From positions 1 through 53,874 of the forward strand of contig CAMCYR010000022.1 of NCBI GenBank assembly GCA_945885475.1: DNA of 53,874 bases, read 5' to 3'. The DNA is from Chitinophaga pinensis. Lineage in GTDB: Bacteria; Bacteroidota; Bacteroidia; 2-12-FULL-35-15. Both the position numbers and the translations under genes were made by a program. The notes under the pieces were generated by a model, which did not search any database, was not told where the DNA came from, and saw only the letters and a program-made list of their open reading frames with translations. Positions within the stretch are counted from its first letter, which is position 1, and each line of letters opens with the position of its first letter. Below, piece by piece: positions 7,151-37,964 of this stretch.

Positions 7151-7828
7151 ATGCATTTCACTTATGTTTTCATACTCGCCTTCACCCTCTCCTACCCGCT
7201 TTACAAAAGTTTTGAAAGCAGAGTGCAGTTTTATAAAAAGTGGCGTTTTTTGTTCCCTGCAATATTCATCAGCGCCATTGTCTTCATTGCCTGGGACATT
7301 TGGTTTGCGGATAAATCTGTTTGGAGTTTTAACAGAGATTACCTCTTAGGTTTTTTCATTGCAGGGCTTCCCATCGAGGAGTGGCTCTTTTTCTTTATTA
7401 CTCCTTTTTCCTGTGTCTTTATTTATGAGGTACTCAACTATTTTGTAAAAAAAGATATTATAGCTCCGTATGCGAAAGGAATTTCAATTACACTTATAAG
7501 TGCCTTACTTATCCTTGGTATTATGAATACATCGCGGATGTATACCTCCATTACATTTATAACATTGGCACTTGTACTTTTTGTACTTCAATTCATTTTT
7601 AAATCAAGCTACCTCCCTCGTTTCTATCTAACATGGGCCGTTTGTATGATTCCATTTTTGATTGTAAACGGAATGCTTACAGCCTTTCCGGTGATCAGAT
7701 ACAACGAACTGCATATTTTAAATGTACGTATCTTTACAATCCCAATAGAGGATGTATTTTATGGAATGCTGAATACATTGCTGGTTATTGCCATTTATGA
7801 ATACCTTAAAACAAAAAACAATGAATAA
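7151..7828 (+). CDS. crtY: Lycopene cyclase of the fused CrtYc-CrtYd type
   Basis: A 225-residue membrane protein formed by two homologous halves, as in heterodimeric CrtYc and CrtYd fused in one chain. Each half carries the signature PxE(E/D) motif: GLPIEEWLFFF near residue 75 and IPIEDVFYGM near 200. These acidic residues are taken to be catalytic. The enzyme closes a beta-ionone ring on lycopene. It belongs to the operon, 19 bases after the CruF-like gene, and its last codons overlap the start of the next gene (ATGA). This cyclase type combined with CruF is the usual arrangement in Bacteroidota that make monocyclic carotenoids such as saproxanthin or flexixanthin. Confidence 0.88.
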   Translation: MHFTYVFILAFTLSYPLYKSFESRVQFYKKWRFLFPAIFISAIVFIAWDIWFADKSVWSFNRDYLLGFFIAGLPIEEWLFFFITPFSCVFIYEVLNYFVKKDIIAPYAKGISITLISALLILGIMNTSRMYTSITFITLALVLFVLQFIFKSSYLPRFYLTWAVCMIPFLIVNGMLTAFPVIRYNELHILNVRIFTIPIEDVFYGMLNTLLVIAIYEYLKTKNNE

Positions 7829-11135: not shown

Positions 11136-12683
11136 ATGATTTACATAGGGAAAACGCCTTTAACGGCAAACGATTTTTATAAAATACTGTACGCCGAAGA
11201 ACGAATAGATCTTGACCCTACTGCACTTAATAAAGTAAATGAGAGCCATGATTTCCTTAAATCATTTTCCAAAAACAAGCTAATTTATGGTATAAATACC
11301 GGTTTTGGGCCAATGGCACAATACAAAATAAGCGAGCAAAATCAACTCGACCTACAATACAACCTGATACGCAGCCACTGTACTGGAGCAGGAAACCGTC
11401 TTTCCGACATACACGTGAAGTCTTCGATGATCTGCCGGTTAAGTTCTTTGATGCAAGGCTATTCCGGAATCAATTCGGAGGTTGTCCTGCTGCTGAAAGA
11501 ATTAATAAACAACAACGTATATCCTCAAATTTTTGAACACGGTGGTGTTGGTGCAAGTGGCGATTTAGTTCAATTGGCACATTTGGCGCTGAATCTGATC
11601 GGAGAAGGTGAAGTTACTTACAAAGGTGAATTGCGCTCAACAGCTGATGTTTACGAGGAAATCGGTCTAAAGCCAATTACCATTCATTTGCGTGAAGGTC
11701 TCGCGCTTATCAATGGAACTTCAGTAATGACAGGTATTGCCATGGTAAATCTGTTACATTCTAAACAACTACTGAACTGGAGTATCTCCGCCTCCATGCT
11801 GATCATTGAAATGGTTGAATCATACAGTGATCACTTTTCAGATGAACTGCACAGTGTAAAACCACACTTAGGTCAGCGCGCTATAGCAAATGCGATGAAT
11901 ATCGCTATGGGCAACAGTCAATTGATCAGAAAACGGGAAGATTATCTCTTTGATAGCGACAAACATGCTGAGGTCGATGTGTTCAAAGATAAAGTTCAGG
12001 AATATTATTCCATACGCTGTGTGCCCCAAATATTAGGTCCCGTATTTGATACGATCAACTTCACACAAAAAGTGCTGGAAAATGAAGCCAATTCGGTGAA
12101 CGACAATCCGATCATCGATAAAGCAAACAACAATATTTTTCACGGTGGTAATTTCCATGGCGATTACGTTGCATTGGAGATGGACAAGTTAAAAATTGCA
12201 ATCACGAAATTAACGATGCTGGCCGAACGTCAATTAAACTTTTTAATGAATGATAAATTAAACGGAAAACTACCTCCTTTTGTAAATCTTGGTAAATTAG
12301 GATTGAATTTAGGGATGCAGGCAGCACAGTTTACAGCCACTTCAACAACTGCTGAAAACCAAATGCTTTCCAACCCGATGTATATTCACAGTATTCCTAA
12401 CAACAACGACAATCAGGATATTGTAAGTATGGGAACCAATGCAGCCATGATCACTGCCAAAGTGGTTGAAAACGCATATCAGGTGCTTGCAATTGAATTA
12501 TTGAGCGCTGTTCAAGCAGTAGATGCACTAAAATTTGATGCTAAACTATCGACAGAAGGACAAAATACCTATAAAAAAATACGCACGATCGTTCCGCGCT
12601 TTGAAGATGACACTATACTTTATAAAAAGCTTTTAAAAGTGAAAGAATACTTACAGGCAAATAATACGGCACTAATAAATTAA
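11136..12683 (+). CDS. Tyrosine ammonia-lyase (HAL/PAL family)
   Basis: Removes ammonia from L-tyrosine to give 4-coumarate, the starter for the aryl polyene part of flexirubin. The 515-residue protein has the MIO cofactor triad A140-S141-G142 in GGVGASGDL, the catalytic tyrosine in YGINTGFGPM (Y51) and REGLALINGTSVMTG further on. The selectivity loop reads LIRSH (H81). A histidine there is the known hallmark of tyrosine rather than phenylalanine preference, as in the Flavobacterium johnsoniae enzyme, to which the sequence reads very similar throughout. Genes of this type at the head of flexirubin clusters are often mis-annotated as hutH; no other histidine-degradation gene is near. It heads the plus-strand cluster behind a strong promoter. 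Confidence 0.88.
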   Translation: MIYIGKTPLTANDFYKILYAEERIDLDPTALNKVNESHDFLKSFSKNKLIYGINTGFGPMAQYKISEQNQLDLQYNLIRSHCTGAGNRLSDIHVKSSMICRLSSLMQGYSGINSEVVLLLKELINNNVYPQIFEHGGVGASGDLVQLAHLALNLIGEGEVTYKGELRSTADVYEEIGLKPITIHLREGLALINGTSVMTGIAMVNLLHSKQLLNWSISASMLIIEMVESYSDHFSDELHSVKPHLGQRAIANAMNIAMGNSQLIRKREDYLFDSDKHAEVDVFKDKVQEYYSIRCVPQILGPVFDTINFTQKVLENEANSVNDNPIIDKANNNIFHGGNFHGDYVALEMDKLKIAITKLTMLAERQLNFLMNDKLNGKLPPFVNLGKLGLNLGMQAAQFTATSTTAENQMLSNPMYIHSIPNNNDNQDIVSMGTNAAMITAKVVENAYQVLAIELLSAVQAVDALKFDAKLSTEGQNTYKKIRTIVPRFEDDTILYKKLLKVKEYLQANNTALIN

Positions 12684-14938: not shown

Positions 14939-15196
14939 ATGACAAAGGCAGAAATAATTGAAAGAATTAATGGCTTTTTAGTGGATGAATTTGAGGTGGA
15001 TGCGGATAAAATCAATCCGGATGAAAACTTGCGTGACACTTTAGGCTTAGATAGTTTAGACTACGTAGATCTTGTTGTGATCATCGAAAGTAATTTTGGA
15101 TTTAAAGTGGTTGCTGAAGATTTCATCAACATCAGTACGTTTCAGAATTTTTACGACTACGTAGAACGTAAAGTAACTGAAAAGGCTTCAGCATAG
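14939..15196 (+). CDS. Acyl carrier protein
   Basis: An acidic 85-residue carrier protein with the phosphopantetheine attachment motif LGLDSLDYVDL, Ser39 carrying the arm. It presumably holds aryl polyene or alkyl intermediates. It follows a ketosynthase and precedes an acyltransferase. A second cluster ACP is at 27333-27587; two ACPs may separate polyene and resorcinol branches. No phosphopantetheinyl transferase gene is visible in the window, so activation depends on an enzyme encoded elsewhere. Confidence 0.92.
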   Translation: MTKAEIIERINGFLVDEFEVDADKINPDENLRDTLGLDSLDYVDLVVIIESNFGFKVVAEDFINISTFQNFYDYVERKVTEKASA

Positions 15197-15336: not shown

Positions 15337-16239
15337 ATGGCAAAGTGGGAAGGCAAATCAAAGGGAACCGTATTAGGTCATAAGATATTCGTTTTCATTT
15401 TAAATCATTTAGGGTTAAAACTCGCGTACATCGTTCTTCGCTTTGTAGCCTTATACTATTTCTTTTTCGCGCGCAAATCGAATAAAAACAGCTTCTACTT
15501 CTTCCATCACGTTTTAAAATACAAACGTTTTACTACCTATATTAAAATTTACAAAAATTATTATGTATTCGGTCAAACGATCCTAGATAAGGTAGCATTG
15601 CTTGCTGGTGTTAAAACAAAATTTACCATCAACCACGATGGCGGCACCAATCTGGATAAAATCGCTGAAATGGGTAAAGGAGGAATATTGGTTAGTGCGC
15701 ATGTTGGAAACTGGGAAATTGCAGGACAACTCCTCAACCGCTTAAATACGAACTTCAATATTCTCATGTATGAAAACGAACATGAGAGTATAAAAAAATA
15801 CATGGAGGAAGTAGAAAAGAAAAAAAATGTGAAAATCATTGCCATTAAAGATGGCGAAATGGGACATTTTATTGAACTTCACAATGCCTTCAGCAAGAAT
15901 GAATTAGTTGTGATGCATGGCGATCGTTTTCGCGATGGCGCTCAAACACTCGAAGCAACTTTCTTGGGAAAAATAGCCAAATTTCCTGCAGGACCATTCA
16001 TTATGGCTGCAAAATTCGGAGTACCGCTTTCGGTTGTTTTTGCTATAAAAGAAACAAGCACCCATTATCACTTTTTTGCCTCCGACCCTATTCATGTCAA
16101 CCGTACGCGTGATCCAAAGCAAACCGAACTCGCTGTTCAGGAACTTCTGAAAAAGTATTTGGAGGAAGTGGAGAAAATAGTTTACCGCTACCCGGAGCAA
16201 TGGTTTAACTATTTCGCTTTCTGGAAGGAACAGAATTAA
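15337..16239 (+). CDS. LpxL/HtrB-type acyltransferase
   Basis: A 300-residue membrane-associated lysophospholipid-type acyltransferase. One hydrophobic N-terminal region (about 15-45) precedes the catalytic HxxxxE motif, H122-VGNW-E127 in SAHVGNWEIAG. This is followed by an MHGDR segment and FLGKIAKFPAGPFIMAAKFGVPL, a typical substrate-side block. Family members use acyl-ACP to acylate lipid A or other lipids at the inner membrane. In this cluster it may attach or transfer a polyene or fatty acyl chain; it is one of three candidate acyl transferases (with the BtrH-like protein and the PlsC domain of the fusion at 34119-37964). Its stop codon directly abuts the stop of the convergent cupredoxin gene. 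Confidence 0.85.
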   Translation: MAKWEGKSKGTVLGHKIFVFILNHLGLKLAYIVLRFVALYYFFFARKSNKNSFYFFHHVLKYKRFTTYIKIYKNYYVFGQTILDKVALLAGVKTKFTINHDGGTNLDKIAEMGKGGILVSAHVGNWEIAGQLLNRLNTNFNILMYENEHESIKKYMEEVEKKKNVKIIAIKDGEMGHFIELHNAFSKNELVVMHGDRFRDGAQTLEATFLGKIAKFPAGPFIMAAKFGVPLSVVFAIKETSTHYHFFASDPIHVNRTRDPKQTELAVQELLKKYLEEVEKIVYRYPEQWFNYFAFWKEQN

Positions 16240-16694: not shown

Positions 16695-18386
16695 ATGAAC
16701 ATTATGAAAAAACAATACGACGTAATTATAGCTGGTGGTGGACTTGCCGGACTGACTCTTTCCATACAATTAAAAAAAGCAAATCCCGATATATCAATAT
16801 TAATAATGGAATACCGAGATAGCATTGCGCCTGTTGCAGCTCATAAAGTGGGTGAATCCACAGTTGAATTAGCAACCCATTATTATCGCGAAGTACTTGG
16901 ATTGAAAGATTATTTAGAAGAATTTGAATTACCGAAGCACGGACTTCGTTTTTTCTTTCATTCAGATAATAAAGATGAAATTTCTAACCGCGTAGAATTA
17001 GGTCCTCGTTTGAAACTTCCTACTCCGAGCCACCAGCTTGACAGAGGAACATTCGAAAACTTCATGGAAAAATATACGAAAGAATTAGGAACAGAATTTA
17101 TGTTGTCTGCTCGTGTGAAAGATGTTGAATTTAATGATTCAGGACACACTGTTATTTTTAATCACAATGAAGAAGAAAAACAGTTAAAAGCACGTTGGGT
17201 AGTGGATGCAACGAGCAGATTCAGTTTATTGAAACGTAAATTGAAATTTGAAAAAGAGACCCCACATAATGTGAATGCGGTTTGGTACCGCTTGAAAGGT
17301 GTTGTCGATATTGACGACTGGAGTGAAAATAAGGAATGGAAAACCTTCCTTGCTCCAAAACTACGTTATTTAAGTACCATTCACTTTATGGATAAAGGTT
17401 ATTGGGTATGGATAATTCCTTTGGGCTCAGAAAATACAAGTATTGGAATTGTTGCCGATGAAGATATCCATCCGTTTAACTCAATTAATACATACGAAAA
17501 AGCTGTTGAATGGATCAAAAAGAATGAACCTCTTGCAGCAAAACATGTTTGTCCGCCCAAAGAAGAGCTCATGGATTTTCGTATTTTGAAGCACTTTGCA
17601 CACAATAGTACAAGAATGTATTCGAAAGAACGTTGGGCATGTACAGGTGAAGCCGGCGTGTTCCTGGACCCATTTTATTCTCCGGGAAGTGATTTTATTG
17701 CGATGAATAACACATGGTTGTCAGATTTAATTTTGCGCGATAAAGCAGGAGAAGATATTTCATTAAGAACCGAAGTATATGAAACCATGCATTTAAAATG
17801 GTACGATAGCTGGCTTCCAATCTATCAGGATAAATATAAATTGATGGGGAACACCCAGATCATGGTTTTTAAAATATTCTGGGATTGGGCAATTTATTGG
17901 TCGGTACCTTGTGTTTTATTCACGAATAAAGGATATACCGACTTAAAAGTACTTCGGAATTTATTTGTTTCTGAAAATGGAATCGGAACAAAGTTCCAGG
18001 CTCTGAATAAGATTATGCAAGATCTGTTTTTGGAATGGCTTCCTTACGAAAAAGCAACATTCACAGATCGTTACATAGATCCATTTGATATGATGTATAT
18101 GCGTGAATTTCAAACAGGAATCGAGTTTCAGCATGGAAGCTCAGCTGCTTTGCTTGATCAAATGAAAATAAACATGGGTAAAATCGAACTGATTGCAGCA
18201 GAAATGTTTCGCCACATCAGTCACCAGGTTAAGGGGACACCTTTAGATATGAAGGTGAATCCTTACACGATCAGCCTCAAAGAGCCCATCGATACAACAA
18301 GTGAATCAGCTTTATCAGTTGATGCTTCAATAAAGGAAGATGTGGAAGTCATGTGGTTTTATAAACAAGAAAATGTGTTTTCATAA
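16695..18386 (+). CDS. Flavin-dependent halogenase-like oxidoreductase
   Basis: A 563-residue FAD enzyme of the tryptophan-halogenase superfamily. The FAD motif GGGLAG (14-19) is followed by HKVGEST (50-56). K81 in the KHGLRFF segment fits the position of the catalytic lysine of halogenases, and WVWIIP (237-242) fits the WxWxIP signature that separates halogenases from monooxygenases. FLDPFYSPGSDF near 330 is also family-like. Flexirubins are sometimes chlorinated, so this enzyme may halogenate the aryl head, probably while ACP-bound; hydroxylation remains an alternative. A second ATG at 16704 (codon 4) is equally possible as start. It lies 12 bases before the next small gene, forming a pair. 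Confidence 0.8.
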   Translation: MNIMKKQYDVIIAGGGLAGLTLSIQLKKANPDISILIMEYRDSIAPVAAHKVGESTVELATHYYREVLGLKDYLEEFELPKHGLRFFFHSDNKDEISNRVELGPRLKLPTPSHQLDRGTFENFMEKYTKELGTEFMLSARVKDVEFNDSGHTVIFNHNEEEKQLKARWVVDATSRFSLLKRKLKFEKETPHNVNAVWYRLKGVVDIDDWSENKEWKTFLAPKLRYLSTIHFMDKGYWVWIIPLGSENTSIGIVADEDIHPFNSINTYEKAVEWIKKNEPLAAKHVCPPKEELMDFRILKHFAHNSTRMYSKERWACTGEAGVFLDPFYSPGSDFIAMNNTWLSDLILRDKAGEDISLRTEVYETMHLKWYDSWLPIYQDKYKLMGNTQIMVFKIFWDWAIYWSVPCVLFTNKGYTDLKVLRNLFVSENGIGTKFQALNKIMQDLFLEWLPYEKATFTDRYIDPFDMMYMREFQTGIEFQHGSSAALLDQMKINMGKIELIAAEMFRHISHQVKGTPLDMKVNPYTISLKEPIDTTSESALSVDASIKEDVEVMWFYKQENVFS

Positions 18387-18398
18387 TCGACATATAAA

Positions 18399-18797
18399 AT
18401 GAAAAAAGAAGACTTACCACAAGATGATTCTCCTTTAAAAAAAATGACAAGAGAGTTGCTGTACGTTAAAGACGAAAATGGCAAATACACAACAGATCTT
18501 AGTACAGGATGGGAAGTGAAAAAAAAAGCGTTAGAAAATGCTTGGGATGAGATAAAGGAGCGGTCGGAAGAGGCACGAATAGCGGTTAAAAACGGAGAGA
18601 AAAGTCCGATCTGCTATTTTATGGAAATAAAACTAATGGACGTAATGATATTATCTGCTTACACTAACTTTTGGGGATTTACTATCAAACGTCACATGAA
18701 ACCAAAGGTATTTAAGGAACTAAGCGATAAAAAATTAAACAGATATGCAAAGGCATTTGAAATAAGCCTAGAGGATTTAAAAAAATTTAAAGGCTAA
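18399..18797 (+). CDS. Small uncharacterised flexirubin-cluster protein
   Basis: A 132-residue soluble protein with no signal peptide. It is charged and helix-rich: the N-terminal half contains LYVKDENGKYTTDLSTGWE and KKALENAWDEIKER, and the C-terminal half has PICYFMEIKLMDVMILSAYTN and KRHMKPKVFKELSDKKLNRYAKAFE (split helices). I recognise no domain. It sits 12 bases behind the halogenase-like gene and 72 bases before the BtrH-like gene, so it probably works with one of them. A role as partner or stabiliser of either enzyme is a guess. Confidence 0.7.
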   Translation: MKKEDLPQDDSPLKKMTRELLYVKDENGKYTTDLSTGWEVKKKALENAWDEIKERSEEARIAVKNGEKSPICYFMEIKLMDVMILSAYTNFWGFTIKRHMKPKVFKELSDKKLNRYAKAFEISLEDLKKFKG

Positions 18798-18869: not shown

Positions 18870-19886
18870 TTGAAAAAAGAATTTAAACATATTCAGGCAG
18901 CTCATTGCGAAAATGGCGTTGGTGTAAGCCTTCTTAAATATCACGGATTGGAATTTGTAACAGAACCTTTAATTTTTGGAATGGGCTCTGGCTTATTATA
19001 CCTGCACTTACCGCTCATAAAAATCAACAACGGCCCCTTCATTACTTTCAGAACAATGCCCGGTAAAATTTTTAGTACTGCTAGTAAATCAATGGGAATA
19101 AAAGTAAGCAGAACTAAATTCGGGTCAGAAGTTAAGGCAATGAATTTTCTAGATAAAAAAGTGAAAGAGGGAGTTCCAGTTGGTTGTCAGGTTGGAGTAT
19201 TTAATCTCCCCTACTTTCCTCCCGAATACCGCTTTCATTTTAATGCTCATAACTTAATTGTTTATGGAAAAGAAAATGGAAATTATTTGGTGAGTGATCC
19301 TGTCATGGAAACAGTTACAACATTATCTGAAGAAGACATGATTAAAGTCCGTTTTGCAAAAGGACCACTTGCACCAAGAGGACAACTATATTTTCCAGAA
19401 AATGTGCATCAAATTGATACAGAAACTATTCGAAATGGAATAATTAAAGGAATAAAAAGAACTAATTTAATGATGCTTGATGCTCCAGGTGGTATAATCG
19501 GAGTAAATGGAATAAAATATACAGCCAGACAAATCCAAAAATGGCGCGACAAAATGGGACCCCGGAAAGCAGCACTCTACTTAGGACAAATTGTAAGGAT
19601 GCAAGAAGAAATTGGCACCGGTGGTGGAGGATTCAGATTCATTTATGCAGCTTTTTTAGAACAGGCTGCTGCCTACGTGAAAAATGATAGTCTTTTGGAG
19701 ATCTCGGAAGAGTTCACAAAATCGGGGGATCTTTGGCGGGAAAGTGCTATCCAGATGGGTAGGATATACAAAGGCAGAATAAATAACGAACAAGCTGATT
19801 TTGAAGTTTGTTCGGATCTATTAATGCGTATTTCAGACCTTGAAAAACAGGCATTCCTAAAACTTAGAAAGTTAAAGTTGAAATAA
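18870..19886 (+). CDS. BtrH-like acyl-ACP transferase
   Basis: A 338-residue protein with a BtrH N-terminal domain (about 1-150). The papain-like residues are visible: Cys13 in QAAHCENGV, His127 in FNAHNLIVYG and Asp143 in LVSDP. In butirosin synthesis BtrH moves an acyl group from an ACP onto an aminoglycoside. By analogy this enzyme could move the aryl polyene chain from ACP to the resorcinol hydroxyl, making the flexirubin ester. A helical C-terminal domain follows. The start is TTG at 18870; the next in-frame ATG is some 38 codons in and would remove the catalytic cysteine, so TTG is well supported. Family assignment is seen; the substrate is inferred. Confidence 0.8.
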   Translation: MKKEFKHIQAAHCENGVGVSLLKYHGLEFVTEPLIFGMGSGLLYLHLPLIKINNGPFITFRTMPGKIFSTASKSMGIKVSRTKFGSEVKAMNFLDKKVKEGVPVGCQVGVFNLPYFPPEYRFHFNAHNLIVYGKENGNYLVSDPVMETVTTLSEEDMIKVRFAKGPLAPRGQLYFPENVHQIDTETIRNGIIKGIKRTNLMMLDAPGGIIGVNGIKYTARQIQKWRDKMGPRKAALYLGQIVRMQEEIGTGGGGFRFIYAAFLEQAAAYVKNDSLLEISEEFTKSGDLWRESAIQMGRIYKGRINNEQADFEVCSDLLMRISDLEKQAFLKLRKLKLK

Positions 19887-20150: not shown

Positions 20151-21071
20151 ATGAAAAAAGTACTTGTAATTTATTATACCCAAACAGGTCAGCTTACCAG
20201 CGCAGTAAAGGCAACTCTTCAACCTTTAGAAGAAGACCCTGAAATTGAAATTTATTACGAACTAATCGTTCCGAAGGTAAAATATCCTTACCCCTGGAAA
20301 TATGTGGAATTTTTCGATATTTTTCCGGAAACGGTTCATGGAATTCCTTGCCAGCTGGAAGCTTTTTCTTTTGACCCGGACCATCATTACGACCTTATCA
20401 TTCTGGCTTACCAACCGTGGTTCCTCTCTATTTGTATTCCCATAAATTCTTTTTTACAAAGTCATGCAGCAAAAAAAGTATTGGCAAATAAACCTGTCAT
20501 TACTGTAATTGCTTGCCGGAACATGTGGCTGATGGCACAAGAAAAAATGAAACGTAGTTTAATTGAAAGAAATGCCAAACTAGTAGGTAACATTGCATTT
20601 GTGGACAAATCTGCAAACCTGATAAGCCTTATCACTGTTTTGGCATTTATTCTCGGAGGTGTAAAAGATCGCTTTTTAGGAATTTTTCCTAAATATGGTG
20701 TAAAAGAAAGTGACCTTGATAAGGCACCATCGTATGGAAAAATCATATCAAAACATTTTAAATCCAATTCTTATTCGAGCTTACAACAATCTTTGAACGA
20801 AGAGCACGCGGCAACAATCAAGCCCAATCTAATGATAATGGAAGGAAGAGGGAAAATACTCTTTCCCATTTATGCGAACTATATCTCAAAAAAAGGAATC
20901 GCAGGAAGCAAGGAGAGAAGAACACGCGTAATTATTTTTGGAATATTTCTTCCCACCGCTATTTTGATACTCTCACCAATAATTACACTATTTTCACGTT
21001 TAGCACCATTGATTTTATCAAAAAAAATGAAAAAAGAAATGGATTATTTCAGCCAAAATACACTTCGCTAA
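20151..21071 (+). CDS. darA: DarA, dialkylresorcinol-forming flavodoxin-like enzyme
   Basis: A 306-residue protein with a flavodoxin-like N-terminus (VLVIYYTQTGQLTSAVK, residues 4-20, binding a flavin phosphate), a NMWLMAQEKMK segment in the middle and a hydrophobic C-terminal region around residues 255-285. It reads like DarA of dialkylresorcinol and flexirubin clusters. In the published pathway DarB makes a cyclohexanedione by head-to-head condensation and DarA oxidises it to the resorcinol ring. The product is the alkylresorcinol half of flexirubin. Its partner darB follows 163 bases later behind its own promoter. The gene lies immediately behind a strong terminator. Confidence 0.87.
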   Translation: MKKVLVIYYTQTGQLTSAVKATLQPLEEDPEIEIYYELIVPKVKYPYPWKYVEFFDIFPETVHGIPCQLEAFSFDPDHHYDLIILAYQPWFLSICIPINSFLQSHAAKKVLANKPVITVIACRNMWLMAQEKMKRSLIERNAKLVGNIAFVDKSANLISLITVLAFILGGVKDRFLGIFPKYGVKESDLDKAPSYGKIISKHFKSNSYSSLQQSLNEEHAATIKPNLMIMEGRGKILFPIYANYISKKGIAGSKERRTRVIIFGIFLPTAILILSPIITLFSRLAPLILSKKMKKEMDYFSQNTLR

Positions 21072-21234: not shown

Positions 21235-22374
21235 ATGGATAAAGCTGTATACATTAATCGAGTTGCCAAATTTTTACCCGGAGAGCCGATAGGGAACGAA
21301 GATATTGAAGAATACCTTGGTTATGTGGATGGTAAACGATCTCGCTCAAAGTCCATCGTACTCAGAAACAACAAAATTACCACACGCTACTACGCAAGAA
21401 ATAAACAAGGGCAAGACACGCATACAAATGCCGAATTAACCGCAGAAGCAGTCAGAGGACTTTGTATCGATGGCTTCAAGTTGGACGATATAGAATTACT
21501 CACAAGCGGGACAACATCACCCGATCAACTTTTGCCTGCTCACGGAATAATGGTTCACGGTTTATTAAAATCAAGACCCATCGAAACTATTTCCTTTGCA
21601 GGTTCCTGCTGCTCAGGAATGAATGCGCTGAAATATGCCTACATGTCGATCATTTCGGGTAATACAAACAATGCTGTGACAACGGGATCTGAAAAATTAT
21701 CATCTTGGATGTCAGCGCAGTCATTTGAAGAGGAAGCACAAAAGTTAAAAGAATTGGAGAACAACCCAATGCTCTCTTTCGAAAAAGATTTCTTGCGTTG
21801 GATGTTGTCAGATGGTGCTGCTGCTGCTTTGTTGAGTAACAAACCTAATCCGACAGGTATTTCATTAAAGATTGATTGGTTAGAAATATGCTCTTTTGCC
21901 AATGAGGTTGAAACATGCATGTATGCTGCAGCTGAAAAAGATGAAGCCGGTAACTTACACGGATGGAGCGAATATACTCCGAAAGAATGGTTAGAAAAAT
22001 CTATCTTTTCACTTAAACAAGATACCCGCTTACTAGACAAAAATATTGCTCGATTGGGAATAGCAAAACTTGCAAGCATATTGAAAAAACATAAGATTGA
22101 CCATAAAACGATAGATTGGTATTTACCACACATTTCATCTGAATATTTTAGATCAAAAGTAGATGATGAAATGGTAGTTCATAATATCCAGATTCCTCAG
22201 GAAAAATGGTTCATCAATCTGACCAGAGTGGGAAATGTAGGTTCAGCATCTATATTTTTGGCCATCGAAGAATTAATGAACTCAGGTAAATTGATGAAAG
22301 GGCAGCAAATTGTACTGATCGTTCCTGAAAGTGCGCGATTCTCTTTTGCTTATTCATTATTAACGGTTGTATAG
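21235..22374 (+). CDS. darB: DarB, ketosynthase III-like condensing enzyme for dialkylresorcinol
   Basis: A 379-residue KAS III-type enzyme. The active site shows the motif FAGSCCSGMNALKYA (C125-C126, one being the nucleophile), a histidine in WYLPHISSEYF and the asparagine loop LTRVGNVGSASIF. The N-terminus has the DarB pattern VDGKRSRSKSIVLRNNKI. DarB joins two fatty-acid-derived chains head to head and cyclises them to an alkylated cyclohexanedione, the precursor of the dialkylresorcinol part. The stop codon directly abuts the next ATG, so it is coupled to the dehydratase-like gene. It has its own promoter with a structured leader. Confidence 0.9.
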   Translation: MDKAVYINRVAKFLPGEPIGNEDIEEYLGYVDGKRSRSKSIVLRNNKITTRYYARNKQGQDTHTNAELTAEAVRGLCIDGFKLDDIELLTSGTTSPDQLLPAHGIMVHGLLKSRPIETISFAGSCCSGMNALKYAYMSIISGNTNNAVTTGSEKLSSWMSAQSFEEEAQKLKELENNPMLSFEKDFLRWMLSDGAAAALLSNKPNPTGISLKIDWLEICSFANEVETCMYAAAEKDEAGNLHGWSEYTPKEWLEKSIFSLKQDTRLLDKNIARLGIAKLASILKKHKIDHKTIDWYLPHISSEYFRSKVDDEMVVHNIQIPQEKWFINLTRVGNVGSASIFLAIEELMNSGKLMKGQQIVLIVPESARFSFAYSLLTVV

Positions 22375-22939: not shown

Positions 22940-23689
22940 ATGAATGACAATGCTGCAATTGAAGTAAAAAATCTGCTAAAAACATACAAGGGTGCAACTG
23001 TTCCTGCTGTAAATTCAATTTCCTTTACAATCGAAAAAGGCAGTATTTTTGGATTGCTTGGACCAAATGGTGCCGGTAAAACAACAACTATTTCCATACT
23101 TTGCGGATTAAGTAAAGCCACAAATGGCGATGCTACTCTGATGGGTTTATCTCTGAAGAAACAACTTGCAGAAATCAAGCAACTTATTGGCGTAGTCCCA
23201 CAGGAAATTGCCCTCTACCCTACTCTGACCGCTTTTGAAAACCTTCGCTATGTTGGAAATATGTACGGATTAAGAGGCGCAAATCTTAGAAAAAAAATAA
23301 AAGATAATTTAGAAGTTGTCGGCTTATCTGAATTTGCTGACAAAAAAATTGAGACATTTTCAGGAGGCATGAAGCGGAGAATAAATCTCGTGGCAGGAAT
23401 ATTAAATGATCCAAAAATTTTGTTCTTAGATGAACCAACAGTTGGTGTTGATGTTCAATCGAGAAATCTTATTACCGAACATTTACATCAATTGAATAAT
23501 GCCGGCTGTACCATTGTTTACACATCACATTTAATGGAAGAAGCGGAAAATTTATGTACCGCAATAGCGATTATTGACCACGGTCAAATACTTGCACTAG
23601 GCGAACCGAAGGCCTTAATAAAAGAACATTCAACAGGTAATTTAGAGCAATTATTTTTAAAATTGACAGGTAAAAAACTACGCGACTAG
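22940..23689 (+). CDS. ABC transporter ATP-binding subunit
   Basis: A 249-residue ATPase with Walker A LGPNGAGKTT (38-47), Q-loop VPQE, signature FSGGMKRR near 143, Walker B ILFLDEP near 163 and the H-loop YTSH. It belongs to the drug and lipid exporter class that pairs with ABC-2 permeases. The permease gene starts 7 bases after its stop. Within the flexirubin cluster the pair probably exports a precursor or the pigment across the inner membrane; the substrate is inferred only from position. Confidence 0.9.
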   Translation: MNDNAAIEVKNLLKTYKGATVPAVNSISFTIEKGSIFGLLGPNGAGKTTTISILCGLSKATNGDATLMGLSLKKQLAEIKQLIGVVPQEIALYPTLTAFENLRYVGNMYGLRGANLRKKIKDNLEVVGLSEFADKKIETFSGGMKRRINLVAGILNDPKILFLDEPTVGVDVQSRNLITEHLHQLNNAGCTIVYTSHLMEEAENLCTAIAIIDHGQILALGEPKALIKEHSTGNLEQLFLKLTGKKLRD

Positions 23690-23696
23690 CGAACAT

Positions 23697-24977
23697 ATGT
23701 TACGTTTATATTCAACCATACAAAAAGAAATATTAATTCTACTTCGTGACAGAGGCGGTCTGATGATCATGTTCATCATGCCAATGGCAATGATTACCCT
23801 AATGGCATTGATCCAGGATGCTCCTTTTCGTGATTACCAAGAGATGAGAATCCCATTGTTATTGGTAAATAACGATAAAGGTAGTTTAGGAAGCACGATT
23901 GATTCCGGTCTGAATGAATCAAAAATATTTGAGATCACCAACCTCCAGCTTGATAAAGATGTTGTAAAGCAAAAAATGAAATCGGGCGATTATGAAATTG
24001 CTATTATCATTCCTGCTGGAGCAAGTACCATGCTAAATTCTAAGGTCAGTAGCTTCGTCACAAAAAAGCTCAATGAAGTAGGATTTTCCGATTCTGCAGC
24101 AATAGCAAAAACAGACTTGAATCAGGAATTGAATTTGGAGATCTTGTTTTCACCTGAAACAAAAAAAGCATTTAAGGCATCCATCTTAAGTACGTTGAAG
24201 CAAGCAACATCAAAAATTGAAACACAAACATTGCTGGAACTTTTTAATAAAGAACTCAAGCAAGATGATGAGGCGAAATCCGGGAAAGCAGAGCCGATGA
24301 GGGATTTTGTAAATTTCAGAGAAATCAATACGGTTGAAACACCTGCAGAAGCCTTAAAATTAAATTCTGTGCAGCACAATGTTCCGGCATGGACCATTTT
24401 CGGAATGTTTTTCATTGTGATCTCTATGTCGGGCAGTATCATAAGAGAAAGAGATGAAGGAAGCTATACTCGTATTCTTACGATGCCGGGCTTATATATC
24501 ACGGTTTTGGGCGGTAAAATTGCAGCCTATTTATTAATTTGTCTGATTCAATGCTTTTTGATGCTGATGGTTGGAATTTACATACTTCCTCAGTTTGGCT
24601 TGCCTCAACTGGTTATCGGGAATAGCATTCCAGCAATTTCAATTGTAGCAATTACAGCAGGTTTGGCTGCAACCGGATATGGTATTTTGGTAGGAACGAT
24701 CTTTAAGACACATCAGCAAGCATCTACCTTTGGTGCTATATCTGTCATAATTTTGGCAGCTTTAGGCGGTATTTGGGTTCCTGTATTTGTCATGCCGGAA
24801 TCAATCAAAATATTTGCTGAATTTTCTCCACTGTATTGGGGTCTGAGTGCATTCCACAAATTATTTTTAAATGAAGGAACGATAAAAAGTATACTGCCAT
24901 ACGCCTTCAAACTAGTGTTATTCTTTGTTTTTACCCTAAGTTTTGCATTACTGTATACTAAGAATAATAGGAGCTAA
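23697..24977 (+). CDS. ABC-2 type exporter permease
   Basis: A 426-residue membrane subunit. It has one N-terminal transmembrane helix (about 20-40, GGLMIMFIMPMAMITLMAL), a large extracytoplasmic domain (about 45-225) and five or six C-terminal helices. The block GSIIRERDEGSYTRILTMP around residues 245-263 is the conserved coupling region of ABC-2 permeases. It pairs with the ATPase just upstream. Probable exporter of flexirubin-related lipid. The permease class is clear, the cargo is not. Confidence 0.88.
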   Translation: MLRLYSTIQKEILILLRDRGGLMIMFIMPMAMITLMALIQDAPFRDYQEMRIPLLLVNNDKGSLGSTIDSGLNESKIFEITNLQLDKDVVKQKMKSGDYEIAIIIPAGASTMLNSKVSSFVTKKLNEVGFSDSAAIAKTDLNQELNLEILFSPETKKAFKASILSTLKQATSKIETQTLLELFNKELKQDDEAKSGKAEPMRDFVNFREINTVETPAEALKLNSVQHNVPAWTIFGMFFIVISMSGSIIRERDEGSYTRILTMPGLYITVLGGKIAAYLLICLIQCFLMLMVGIYILPQFGLPQLVIGNSIPAISIVAITAGLAATGYGILVGTIFKTHQQASTFGAISVIILAALGGIWVPVFVMPESIKIFAEFSPLYWGLSAFHKLFLNEGTIKSILPYAFKLVLFFVFTLSFALLYTKNNRS

Positions 24978-27332: not shown

Positions 27333-27587
27333 ATGGATGCATTAATCGATCAACTTAAAGGAGAAATTATTGAACAATTAAATTTAGAAGATTTAAAAAA
27401 AGAAGACATTGATGCAGATGCTACTCTATTTGGTGAAGGTCTTGGATTAGATTCTATTGATGCCTTGGAATTGATCGTGTTATTGGAAAAAAATCATGGT
27501 ATCAAAGTCGCTAATCCAGCTGACGGAAAAAAAATATTTCAGTCCATTCGCACAATGGCTGAATTTATTCAAGCTAACAAAAAGTAG
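27333..27587 (+). CDS. Acyl carrier protein
   Basis: An acidic 84-residue ACP with the attachment motif GLGLDSIDALELIVLLE, Ser41 carrying the phosphopantetheine. It lies between the half-size ketosynthase homologue and an intact ketosynthase. With the ACP at 14939-15196 it gives the cluster two carriers, in line with two product halves. Confidence 0.92.
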   Translation: MDALIDQLKGEIIEQLNLEDLKKEDIDADATLFGEGLGLDSIDALELIVLLEKNHGIKVANPADGKKIFQSIRTMAEFIQANKK

Positions 27588-34118: not shown

Positions 34119-37100
34119 ATGGAATTACTTTTTACATATATCTATCGTTTTCTAAAAAAAAGAAGAGTACTTTTTTTCATTTTATTTTTAGGGACGTTCA
34201 GTATTGTAAGTTACTATGCATCAAAAATAAAACTAGAAGAAGACATCACTAAAATGATGCCCACAGATGCAAAAGTGGCAAGGCTAAACTCCATTTTCAA
34301 AAATTCTAAGTTTCTTGATAGACTTGTTGTAACGGTTTCATCAGCCGACTCAACAGTTATTCCCGAACCCGATATCTTGATCGGATATACAGACAGTCTT
34401 ATTTCTTCTCTTCAGAAAATTGATTCTTCTCTCATCAAAGAAATCACTTATAAAGTGAATGATGACGTAATGTATGATGTATACAATACATTCATTGAAA
34501 ACCTTCCGATATTTTTAGAAGAACACGATTACAAAACATTGGAGCACCTCATTACAAAAGAAAAGCTAGATACCACACTTGAAAAAAATTATAAGACCTT
34601 ACTTTCTCCCGCCAGCCTTGTTCTGAAAAAAAATATCCTGCGTGATCCGATCGGAATAACTCCCTATGCCTTGAAGCGGATGCAAAGTCTTCAATTTGAT
34701 GATAATTTCGAATTGGAAAATGGATATATCTTTACAAAGGATCGAAAACATGTATTGTTTTTCATTACTCCTCAACCAAAATCAGCTGAAACGGATAAAA
34801 ACTCGAAGTTACTGGATGCACTTGACAAATGCATTGCAGCGTCCTCGCAAAATAAACAAGTACAAGCTGAATATTTCGGAGCGAGTGCTGTTGCCGTTGG
34901 AAATGCAAAACAAATAAAGAGTGATATCATTCTCACACTTTCAATAACTATGATTGGCTTATTCCTCTTTATAGGAATGTTCTTCAGAAGAATCGAAGTA
35001 TTCTTTATTATTTTTATACCTGTACTTTTTGGTGGCGCATTTTCGTTGGCACTACTCTACTTTCTGAAGGGCGAAATCTCTGCAATTGCATTAGGGGCAG
35101 GATCGATCATTTTAGGAATCGCTATCGACTACAGCATACATTTCTACACGCATTTTAAGCACCTTAATTCTGCTGAAGAAACAATCAAAGATCTATCTTT
35201 TCCTTTAACATTAGGAAGCACGACTACCATTGGAGCACTTTTGAGTCTGTACTTTGTAAAATCTGAAGCGCTTCAGGATTTCGGATTATTTGCAGCGTTT
35301 AGCTTAATGGGGGCAGCATTGTTTACACTGATCATCTTTCCTCACCTGATGCGGAAGAAAAAGAATATTGTTCAGGAAAACTTGGAGCACAAACCCAACA
35401 TCATCGAAAAGATCGCAGCCTACAAATTTGAAAAGAATAAACTACTTATTTGGTCGATCATAATTGTATCCGCTGTCTCTTTATATACTTCACAAAAAGT
35501 AAGTTTTGAAGGAGATATGATGAATTTAAACTATATGGATCCGCAGTTGGCAAAGGCCGAACAAAACCTTAACGCGATTAGTAATGTATCGTTGCGGAAT
35601 GTGTATCTCGTTTCAAGCGGAAAAAATCTAGATGAAGCCTTGGAATACAGTGAGAAAAATATTCCATTATTAAATAAGTTAGAAAAGGAAAAAGTTTTAA
35701 ATAAATATTCAGCGATTTCGACCATTTTACTCTCAAAAAAGGAACAGGAAAAACGTATAAAACGCTGGAAAGATTTTTGGACTGCAGAAAAAAAAGCGAT
35801 ACTCAAGGCTGATCTCATCAGTAAAAGTAAAAAATATAAATTCAAAGAAAACGCTTTTTCAGATTTCTATTTAATGCTAGAGAAAGATTTTTCAACCATA
35901 AACGCCAGTGCTTTTAGTGGATTAAAAACCACTATGCTGGATAACTACATAACCGAAAAACCAAATGAAACAACGGTTGTAACCGTAATTAAAACAACAG
36001 CGGAGAATGAAGATAAAGTAGTAAATGCCTTCACAGAAGACGAACATTTGATCGTTTATGATAAAAAATTTCTAACCAACCGTTTCATTGATATTATCAA
36101 AAATAATTTCAATCTGATCCTCACGATTTCTTCTTTACTGGTGCTGATCATGCTGATTATTTCCTACGGCAGGTTTGAACTCGCCATCATCACGTATGTT
36201 CCAATGATGTTGAGCTGGCTTTGTATATTAGGAATAATGGGACTTTTTGGAATAAAATTCAACATTATAAACATAATCATTTCAACATTCATTTTTGGTT
36301 TGGGTGACGATTATGCCATTTTTATTACTGATGCCTTGATGAGTGAATATAAAACAGGGCAAAAGAATCTTACTTCTTACAAAACAGGAATTTTTATCTC
36401 TGCAACAACAACGATGATTGGTATCGGTGTTCTTATTTTCGCATCACATCCAGCTTTAAAATCAATTGGATTAATAACCATCATCGGAATGTTTTCCGTC
36501 CTAATCATCTCAAATACGATCCAACCTGCATTATTTAATTTTTTTATCACCAACAGAGCAAATAAAAAGCATGTTCCTTTCACATTCCTTAGTTTGTTTC
36601 AATCAGCATTTGCTTATTCTTGGTTTGTGCTGGGCTGCATTATACTTATTCCAACGGGATTAATAATTGTAAAACTATTGCCGATTCCAAAAAAAACAAG
36701 GTTAAAAATCTTTCATCGATTCCGTAACTTTTTTAACACGCTGATGATCTATGTGAATGTGCATGTTACTAAAAAAATCATCAATACATCAAACGAACAG
36801 TTTTATAAACCAGCCATTGTAATTGCGAACCATCATTCCGTAATCGATTCGTTACTGATGCAATGTTTGAATCCGAAAATAATACTGATGGTGAATGATT
36901 GGGTTTGGAATTCTCCAATTATCGGTCCGATCGTACAATTAGGTGGATTTATTCCTAAATCAGCCGGGGTCGAAGAAAACCTGGACAAAATTAGAGAATT
37001 GATTAATGATGGCTATTCGCTTGGAATATTTCCTGAAGGTTCTCGTTCTGAGACAGAAAAGATTGGACGCTTTCACAAAGGAGCTTTTTACATAGCGGAG

Positions 37101-37964
37101 AAACTTAATGCGGATATTGTTCCTATCGTTATTCATGGAACAGCCTTTGTTCAAGGAAAAGCAGATAGCTTCTTGTTAAAACCGGGAACTATTACTGTTA
37201 AATATTTGCCACGGATCTCTGCAAAAGACAATTCATTCGGAGAAACATACAGTGAAAAAACAAAAAATATCAGTAACTATTTTAAGGAGGAGTATTCAAA
37301 AATCAGAAAAGAAGTTGAAACAGTTGATTACTTTTTTAATCGTCTTAGTAAAAACTATATCTACAAAGGTCCGGTTTTGGAGTGGTACATGCGCATCAAA
37401 GTTAGAATGGAAGGTAACTACAAGCTGTTTGAATCGCTGTTGCCAAAAAAAGGAATCATTACAGACATTGGCTGCGGTTATGGTTTTCTTCCATACATGC
37501 TTGGATTTATGAGTGAAGAAAGAACCATCATCGGAATGGATTATGATGAGAATAAAATTGCAGTAGCGAATAATTGTTTTTCAAAAAATAAAAATATTTC
37601 TTTTTTCTCGGCGGATGTAACAGAATGTGATCTGCCAAAAAGTGATGCGTTTGTACTAAGCGATATTTTACACTATTTACCAATGGCTGATCAGGAACAG
37701 GTTATTATAAAATGTATTGAAAATTTAAATTCAGGTGGAATAATCCTTCTGCGAGATGCGGATTCTAGTTTAAAAGGTAGACATTGGGGGACACGATATA
37801 CCGAATTTATTTCAACGAATATCGGTTTTAACAAAACGAAAAATAAATTAGAATTTGTATCTTCAAACTTTATTTTTGATGTTTTAAAAAAATACAATTT
37901 AAATTACGAGAAAATCGATAATACAAAATGGACATCCAACATTACGTATATCATTAAAAAGTAA
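34119..37964 (+). CDS. MMPL transporter - PlsC acyltransferase - methyltransferase fusion
   Basis: A 1281-residue three-part protein. Residues 1 to about 830 form an RND/MMPL-type transporter in two halves, each with an N-terminal helix, a periplasmic loop and a block of helices (AIALGAGSIILGIAIDYSIH in the first, FGLGDDYAIFITD in the second). Residues about 860-1080 are a PlsC acyltransferase with NHHSVID near 905 and FPEGSRSE. Residues about 1100-1281 are a Rossmann methyltransferase with DIGCGYGFLP near 1116. It would move and modify flexirubin or its lipid parts at the inner membrane. One uninterrupted frame spans all three parts, so the fusion is genuine. Confidence 0.88.
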   Translation: MELLFTYIYRFLKKRRVLFFILFLGTFSIVSYYASKIKLEEDITKMMPTDAKVARLNSIFKNSKFLDRLVVTVSSADSTVIPEPDILIGYTDSLISSLQKIDSSLIKEITYKVNDDVMYDVYNTFIENLPIFLEEHDYKTLEHLITKEKLDTTLEKNYKTLLSPASLVLKKNILRDPIGITPYALKRMQSLQFDDNFELENGYIFTKDRKHVLFFITPQPKSAETDKNSKLLDALDKCIAASSQNKQVQAEYFGASAVAVGNAKQIKSDIILTLSITMIGLFLFIGMFFRRIEVFFIIFIPVLFGGAFSLALLYFLKGEISAIALGAGSIILGIAIDYSIHFYTHFKHLNSAEETIKDLSFPLTLGSTTTIGALLSLYFVKSEALQDFGLFAAFSLMGAALFTLIIFPHLMRKKKNIVQENLEHKPNIIEKIAAYKFEKNKLLIWSIIIVSAVSLYTSQKVSFEGDMMNLNYMDPQLAKAEQNLNAISNVSLRNVYLVSSGKNLDEALEYSEKNIPLLNKLEKEKVLNKYSAISTILLSKKEQEKRIKRWKDFWTAEKKAILKADLISKSKKYKFKENAFSDFYLMLEKDFSTINASAFSGLKTTMLDNYITEKPNETTVVTVIKTTAENEDKVVNAFTEDEHLIVYDKKFLTNRFIDIIKNNFNLILTISSLLVLIMLIISYGRFELAIITYVPMMLSWLCILGIMGLFGIKFNIINIIISTFIFGLGDDYAIFITDALMSEYKTGQKNLTSYKTGIFISATTTMIGIGVLIFASHPALKSIGLITIIGMFSVLIISNTIQPALFNFFITNRANKKHVPFTFLSLFQSAFAYSWFVLGCIILIPTGLIIVKLLPIPKKTRLKIFHRFRNFFNTLMIYVNVHVTKKIINTSNEQFYKPAIVIANHHSVIDSLLMQCLNPKIILMVNDWVWNSPIIGPIVQLGGFIPKSAGVEENLDKIRELINDGYSLGIFPEGSRSETEKIGRFHKGAFYIAEKLNADIVPIVIHGTAFVQGKADSFLLKPGTITVKYLPRISAKDNSFGETYSEKTKNISNYFKEEYSKIRKEVETVDYFFNRLSKNYIYKGPVLEWYMRIKVRMEGNYKLFESLLPKKGIITDIGCGYGFLPYMLGFMSEERTIIGMDYDENKIAVANNCFSKNKNISFFSADVTECDLPKSDAFVLSDILHYLPMADQEQVIIKCIENLNSGGIILLRDADSSLKGRHWGTRYTEFISTNIGFNKTKNKLEFVSSNFIFDVLKKYNLNYEKIDNTKWTSNITYIIKK

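Follow-up and report, generated by a model that had tools for sequence, protein, structure and literature searches.

The window, the whole stretch of 53,874 nucleotides from Chitinophaga pinensis that we analyzed, carries a flexirubin cluster in which the NCBIfam equivalogs FlxA, FlxB, DarG, DarB, and LolA2 are all present. Our subject is the open reading frame at 18870-19886 on the plus strand, a real gene that begins with a TTG start codon and encodes 338 amino acids. The genes referred to below are as follows.

11136-12683, plus strand: flxA, tyrosine ammonia-lyase, polyene starter (NF053541, 824 bits)
15337-16239, plus strand: LpxL-type acyltransferase (PF03279), a rival candidate for ester formation
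16695-18386: halogenase-like FAD protein gene
18399-18797, plus strand: darG, small helical partner (NF053545, 189 bits, cut-off 170), directly upstream of darH
18870-19886, plus strand: darH, BtrH_N and DUF4872 acyltransferase, proposed polyene-ACP : dialkylresorcinol ester synthase
20151-21071, plus strand: darA, dialkylresorcinol-condensing protein, assigned by position and by conservation beside darB in relatives
21235-22374, plus strand: darB, ketosynthase (NF053539, 597 bits, cut-off 550)
22940-24977, plus strand: ABC transporter ATPase and ABC-2 permease (Pfam), travelling with darAB-darGH
27333-27587, plus strand: acyl carrier protein, possible polyene carrier (a second ACP lies at 14939-15196)
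34119-37964, plus strand: fusion of an MMPL exporter with acyltransferase and methyltransferase domains (domain matches), a rival candidate

The preliminary description had placed the gene between the halogenase-like gene and darA. This is right on the downstream side, where darA follows, but the direct neighbor on the halogenase side is darG, which separates the halogenase-like gene from darH. The darA product itself gave no Pfam or NCBIfam match. A 4HBT thioesterase (Pfam) also lies within the cluster. The MMPL fusion forms one open reading frame of 1281 amino acids, while its homologue in genome G118 is an 812-aa frame matching the MMPL part only. Just upstream of the cluster lies a gene (7151-7828) for a protein with a lycopene cyclase domain (PF18916), and two pigment pathways (lycopene cyclase and flexirubin) may be neighbors here.

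Two Pfam domains cover the DarH protein: BtrH_N (PF14399) at residues 12-144 with 151.5 bits (E 2e-44), and DUF4872 (PF16169) at residues 156-332 with 179.8 bits (E 5e-53). Both are far above their cut-offs. The equivalog model NF053550 (DarH_acyl, "BtrH-related acyltransferase DarH") scored 446.7 bits (cut-off 300), with residues 4-332 aligned to positions 1-324 of its 325, that is, at full length. Since the equivalog cut-off is passed, the gene itself is not new; the family is already named DarH in NCBIfam, and as an acyltransferase, so that the earlier view of the gene as uncharacterized had to be given up. The window protein is an ordinary member, in which we found no difference from the others, and it shares with them the same cluster type (DarG, DarB, FlxA, LolA2). 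The open PMC literature, which defined the scope of our search, yielded no paper assigning the flexirubin ester role to DarH and nothing on DUF4872.

Conserved residues and predicted fold of DarH

Residues 13, 127, and 143 of DarH are C, H, and D. The preliminary description had named them as the BtrH fold residues Cys13, His127, and Asp143, and this is borne out: each of them is conserved without exception in the 46 DarH proteins that were aligned. Seven relatives from Streptomyces, Acinetobacter, haloarchaea, and other Bacteroidota, about 25% identical, likewise all keep Cys13 and His127, and in these the acid of the triad shifts by one column (D at 142 or 143). A further conserved motif was found in the DUF4872 half.

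18906-18908, plus strand: codon of Cys13, proposed nucleophile, invariant in DarH and the distant relatives
19248-19250, plus strand: codon of His127, proposed general base, invariant in DarH and the distant relatives
19296-19298, plus strand: codon of Asp143, proposed acid completing the triad, 46 of 46 in DarH, shifted by one column in the distant relatives
19605-19646, plus strand: conserved DUF4872 motif, residues 246-259 (EEIGTGGGGFRFIY), from the alignment of the wider family

Within this motif, E246, G249, T250, G251, G252, F255, R256, and Y259 are invariant across the wider family.

An AlphaFold2 model of DarH, built with 46 sequences as input, reached a pLDDT of 90.6. Its full-length matches in the PDB were only the carrier-protein-dependent Cys acyltransferases CtaG (Z 24.9, rmsd 3.2, 295 residues), AziU3 (Z 24.1), and CcbD (Z 22.2 over about 305 residues), all with Z of 22-25 over 292-306 residues. 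When the PDB was searched by sequence, neither the single DarH protein nor an alignment of DarH proteins revealed a relative. A profile that included distant relatives gave a weak match to AziU3 (E 0.008), ranked below coiled-coil designs that match the C-terminal helices only.

Below the three enzymes in the structural comparison come C39 peptidase domains, which cover the N-terminal half only (ComA, 3k8u, Z 14.0, 132 residues). This partial fold, together with the annotation of a homologue in Azoarcus as a "BtrH-like peptidase", could be read to mean that DarH is a C39-type peptidase serving the neighboring ABC transporter by acting on a peptide. We consider this highly improbable. The matches that extend over the whole chain, and so take in the DUF4872 half, belong to biosynthesis (CtaG and CcbD among them), and DarH is a stand-alone protein of 338 residues that includes the DUF4872 half and is fused to no ABC exporter. 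The transporter of the window does not adjoin darH, and in genome G017 and at loci L092, L148, and L155 the darG-darH pair lies apart from it.

Relatives of DarH at 24-27% identity occur on plasmids of Acinetobacter, Streptomyces, and haloarchaea, with no dar genes beside those inspected, and all distant relatives that were scored lie well under the DarH cut-off. Therefore the broad BtrH fold is not specific to flexirubin, while the DarH equivalog, as far as these sequences indicate, appears nearly so. It is worth recording what accompanies some of these distant genes. A BtrH_N/DUF4872 gene on an Acinetobacter plasmid (L079) has genes for P450 and PaaI thioesterase in its vicinity; for one on a plasmid of haloarchaea (L081) these are genes for kynureninase and benzoate-CoA ligase. 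A second BtrH_N/DUF4872 family of Bacteroidota (L064-L067), 25-28% identical, has no dar or polyene neighbors; in genome G210 a papain-like protease gene follows it.

The darG gene adjoins darH in 79 of the 80 further loci described below, the best of at least 556 relatives. In these 79 loci the darG stop and the darH start overlap by a median of 4 bp; in the window the two genes are 72 bp apart. DarG belongs to no Pfam family, and a search for PDB relatives returned none at E 0.001 or better. Its model has a confident helical C-terminal part, and the C-terminal half bears an uncertain likeness to helix-turn-helix domains (Z 10.6, 65 residues), which may be due to chance in so small a helical protein. 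The overlap of the two genes, together with the fact that AziU3 was crystallized with its partner protein AziU2 (PDB), suggests that DarG and DarH may form a complex.

Distribution of darH among genomes

We compared two panels, one of 296 genomes from the phylum Bacteroidota and one of 247 genomes from the class, with some genomes in both. In the phylum panel DarH exceeded its cut-off in 23 genomes, exactly those with DarB at 518 bits or more. All 23 also have FlxA over its cut-off, and FlxA was found in two more, G118 and G238. The class panel gave DarH in 42 genomes, FlxA in 45 (including four matches just under the cut-off and one clipped by a contig end), and both in 40. Fisher tests gave values below 1e-31 in each panel, in statistics that ignore shared ancestry. 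DarH is restricted almost entirely to genomes with genes for both halves of the pigment. Widespread occurrence without darA and darB, the counter-argument named in the preliminary description, was not found, as DarB accompanies DarH in 23 of 23 genomes of the phylum panel.

A search of genome contigs added 80 further DarH loci, nearly all titled Bacteroidota and again the best of at least 556 relatives. Among these 80, darB lies within 10 kb of darH in 73, and the ATPase and the permease of an ABC transporter in 67 and 66, respectively. The flxA gene was present in each of the 47 further DarH genomes searched, although DarH, darA, and flxA are far apart in several of them. Where a darB-darG-darH locus had no darA nearby, darA was found elsewhere in each genome tested except G334, and in G017, G303, and G338 the darG-darH pair is separate from darA. 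This retention without linkage argues for a function of DarH rather than for hitch-hiking.

Two genomes depart from the pattern. G390 (98% complete) has darA, darB, and an intact DarH; neither a FlxA match above or close to the cut-off nor a polyene KS-like match was found in it. G334, a MAG, has darG-darH, FlxA, and a KS-like gene; no darA was found in it, and DarB is represented by a 97-bit DarB-like match only. Missing contigs could explain both.

Four other genomes, G513, G524, G477, and G504, are drafts that show gaps or what look like assembly errors. We weighed whether the apparently broken darH of G504 is a natural mutant and rejected this, as the gene has several frame shifts in an 83%-complete draft, where an assembly error is likely; no ABC ATPase gene was recognized there between the broken darH and the intact permease. 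The darH fragments of G382 were likewise dropped.

Relatives of single cluster genes were also seen in other surroundings. DarB-like ketosynthases at L068, L069, and L070 lie in open reading frames of 617-675 amino acids with no darG or darH nearby. On Prevotella and Phocaeicola plasmids (L083, L084) a DarB-family ketosynthase stands beside a TetR regulator, with no darA or darH nearby. The DarB relatives carried by gut Bacteroidales and marine plasmids have no dar or polyene neighbors and say little. In G210 and G238 the flexirubin polyene genes have genes for C45 autoproteolytic acyltransferases as neighbors (L078:7951-9651 and L060:2-892).

Joining of the two halves and comparison with known systems

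Which half of the pigment needs DarH? Genomes G118, G238, and G539 have the polyene cluster but neither darA nor darH, and no darG adjoins their polyene genes (G238 has a DarB-like protein elsewhere in the genome). For the other half, a heterologous host given only darA and darB of C. pinensis is reported to have produced the resorcinol (PMC3992019). By these two lines of evidence DarH is needed for neither half, and therefore, by elimination, it acts where the halves meet, or after. The same observations bear on another reading of the Cys-His-Asp chemistry, which could in principle hydrolyze acyl-ACP and would make DarH a thioesterase-like enzyme that serves editing or release in the polyene or the resorcinol pathway. 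Polyene-only clusters manage without it, DarA and DarB make resorcinol without it, and the cluster already has its 4HBT thioesterase, so we regard this reading as improbable.

A more serious alternative, though in our judgment still an unlikely one, is that another enzyme of the cluster makes the ester and that DarH serves the dialkylresorcinol otherwise, in its tailoring, its retention, or its handover to the ABC transporter. The candidates are FlxW, the LpxL-type protein, the acyltransferase domain of the MMPL fusion, and a C45 acyltransferase. The ligase-like FlxW was suggested for the flexirubin ester in a 2014 paper (PMC3992019); no candidate for it was identified in the window. A role of DarH inside resorcinol metabolism may be indicated by its tracking darB (identical sets, 23 of 23) more closely than flxA, by G390 with its darA, darB, and darH and no polyene gene found, and by the transporter near darH in most of the 80 best loci. 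Against this, flxA occurred in all of the 47 further genomes. LpxL-type and MMPL genes also turn up in the polyene clusters of genomes that have neither darA nor darH, and a C45 acyltransferase in one such genome (G238), so these three are not specific to the joined product and follow it less closely than DarH.

We consider it likely, but by no means certain, that DarH is a cysteine acyltransferase that brings the two branches of flexirubin synthesis together. What we infer as to its substrates, a ping-pong course of the reaction, and the role of DarG is as follows. The finished aryl-polyene would be transferred from its ACP thioester to Cys13. His127 and Asp143 would then activate a phenolic hydroxyl of the dialkylresorcinol that DarA and DarB produce; the activated hydroxyl would accept the acyl group to give the ester, with DarG probably acting as partner protein. 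The genome comparisons support, without proving, the idea that DarH would be the maker of the ester bond. The proposal of a BtrH-like ester acyltransferase in the preliminary description agrees with fold, residues, gene context, and co-occurrence, and fails to account for G390 and G334.

Flexirubins are orange bacterial pigments in wide use as markers of Bacteroidota, and for their joining step the searchable open PMC literature gave a guess only and no demonstrated enzyme. If DarH joins the halves, the pathway is complete enough to be rebuilt.

A similar gene is found in Azoarcus sp. BH72, a producer of a polyene-dialkylresorcinol hybrid. Its pigment was predicted to be a polyene-resorcinol ester, and the genes stand in the order darA-darB-X-BtrH-like-ABC (PMC3949708, the one source of our proteobacterial comparison). 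The BtrH-like gene of this arcuflavin cluster, darE, is annotated only as the peptidase mentioned above; we liken it to DarH by its description and by the dar gene order, which is the same. The name DarH in PMC3949708 denotes a different gene.

BtrH of butirosin biosynthesis makes an amide on an aminoglycoside. It has the Pfam domain BtrH_N in common with DarH, a likeness drawn from domain and description, and has been described as an ACP:aminoglycoside acyltransferase (PMC10318531). AziU3 (azinomycin biosynthesis, PDB 7wuw, 8gs1) has the same full-length fold and belongs to another pathway. CcbD (celesticetin biosynthesis, PDB 7yn1, 9dkr) resembles DarH both in its full-length fold and in a carrier-protein-dependent acyl transfer to Cys: it works by a ping-pong mechanism in which its Cys is loaded with the acyl group of a carrier protein, and fatty acyl groups are among those it accepts (PMC12945683). 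It differs in having a Cys-His-Glu triad, a prolyl donor, and an amino sugar acceptor.

CtaG (closthioamide biosynthesis, PDB 9quz and related) is like DarH in fold over the full length, at about 13% identity. Its triad C11/H128/D144, known from variants named in PDB titles, corresponds to C13/H127/D143 of DarH when compared by numbering. The transfer of 4-hydroxybenzoate from one carrier protein to another has been ascribed to CtaG (PMC6772006). Its donor is a carrier-bound 4-hydroxyphenyl acid, and for DarH, by analogy, a carrier-bound 4-hydroxyphenyl-polyene acid would be a plausible donor. The acceptors differ, being an amine that yields an amide in CtaG and, by our proposal, a phenolic hydroxyl in DarH. 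The characterized relatives are amide formers and make no phenyl esters, which counts against the ester role. We advance only tentatively, as a possibility somewhat short of even, that DarH and DarG together form a two-protein ester synthase of the BtrH/CtaG type which, unlike its amide-forming relatives, would esterify a phenol with an ACP-bound aryl-polyene. If true, this would supply the missing step that joins the halves of flexirubins and of related hybrid pigments in proteobacteria, and the chemistry known for BtrH-type acyltransferases would be extended by a member that forms phenol esters.
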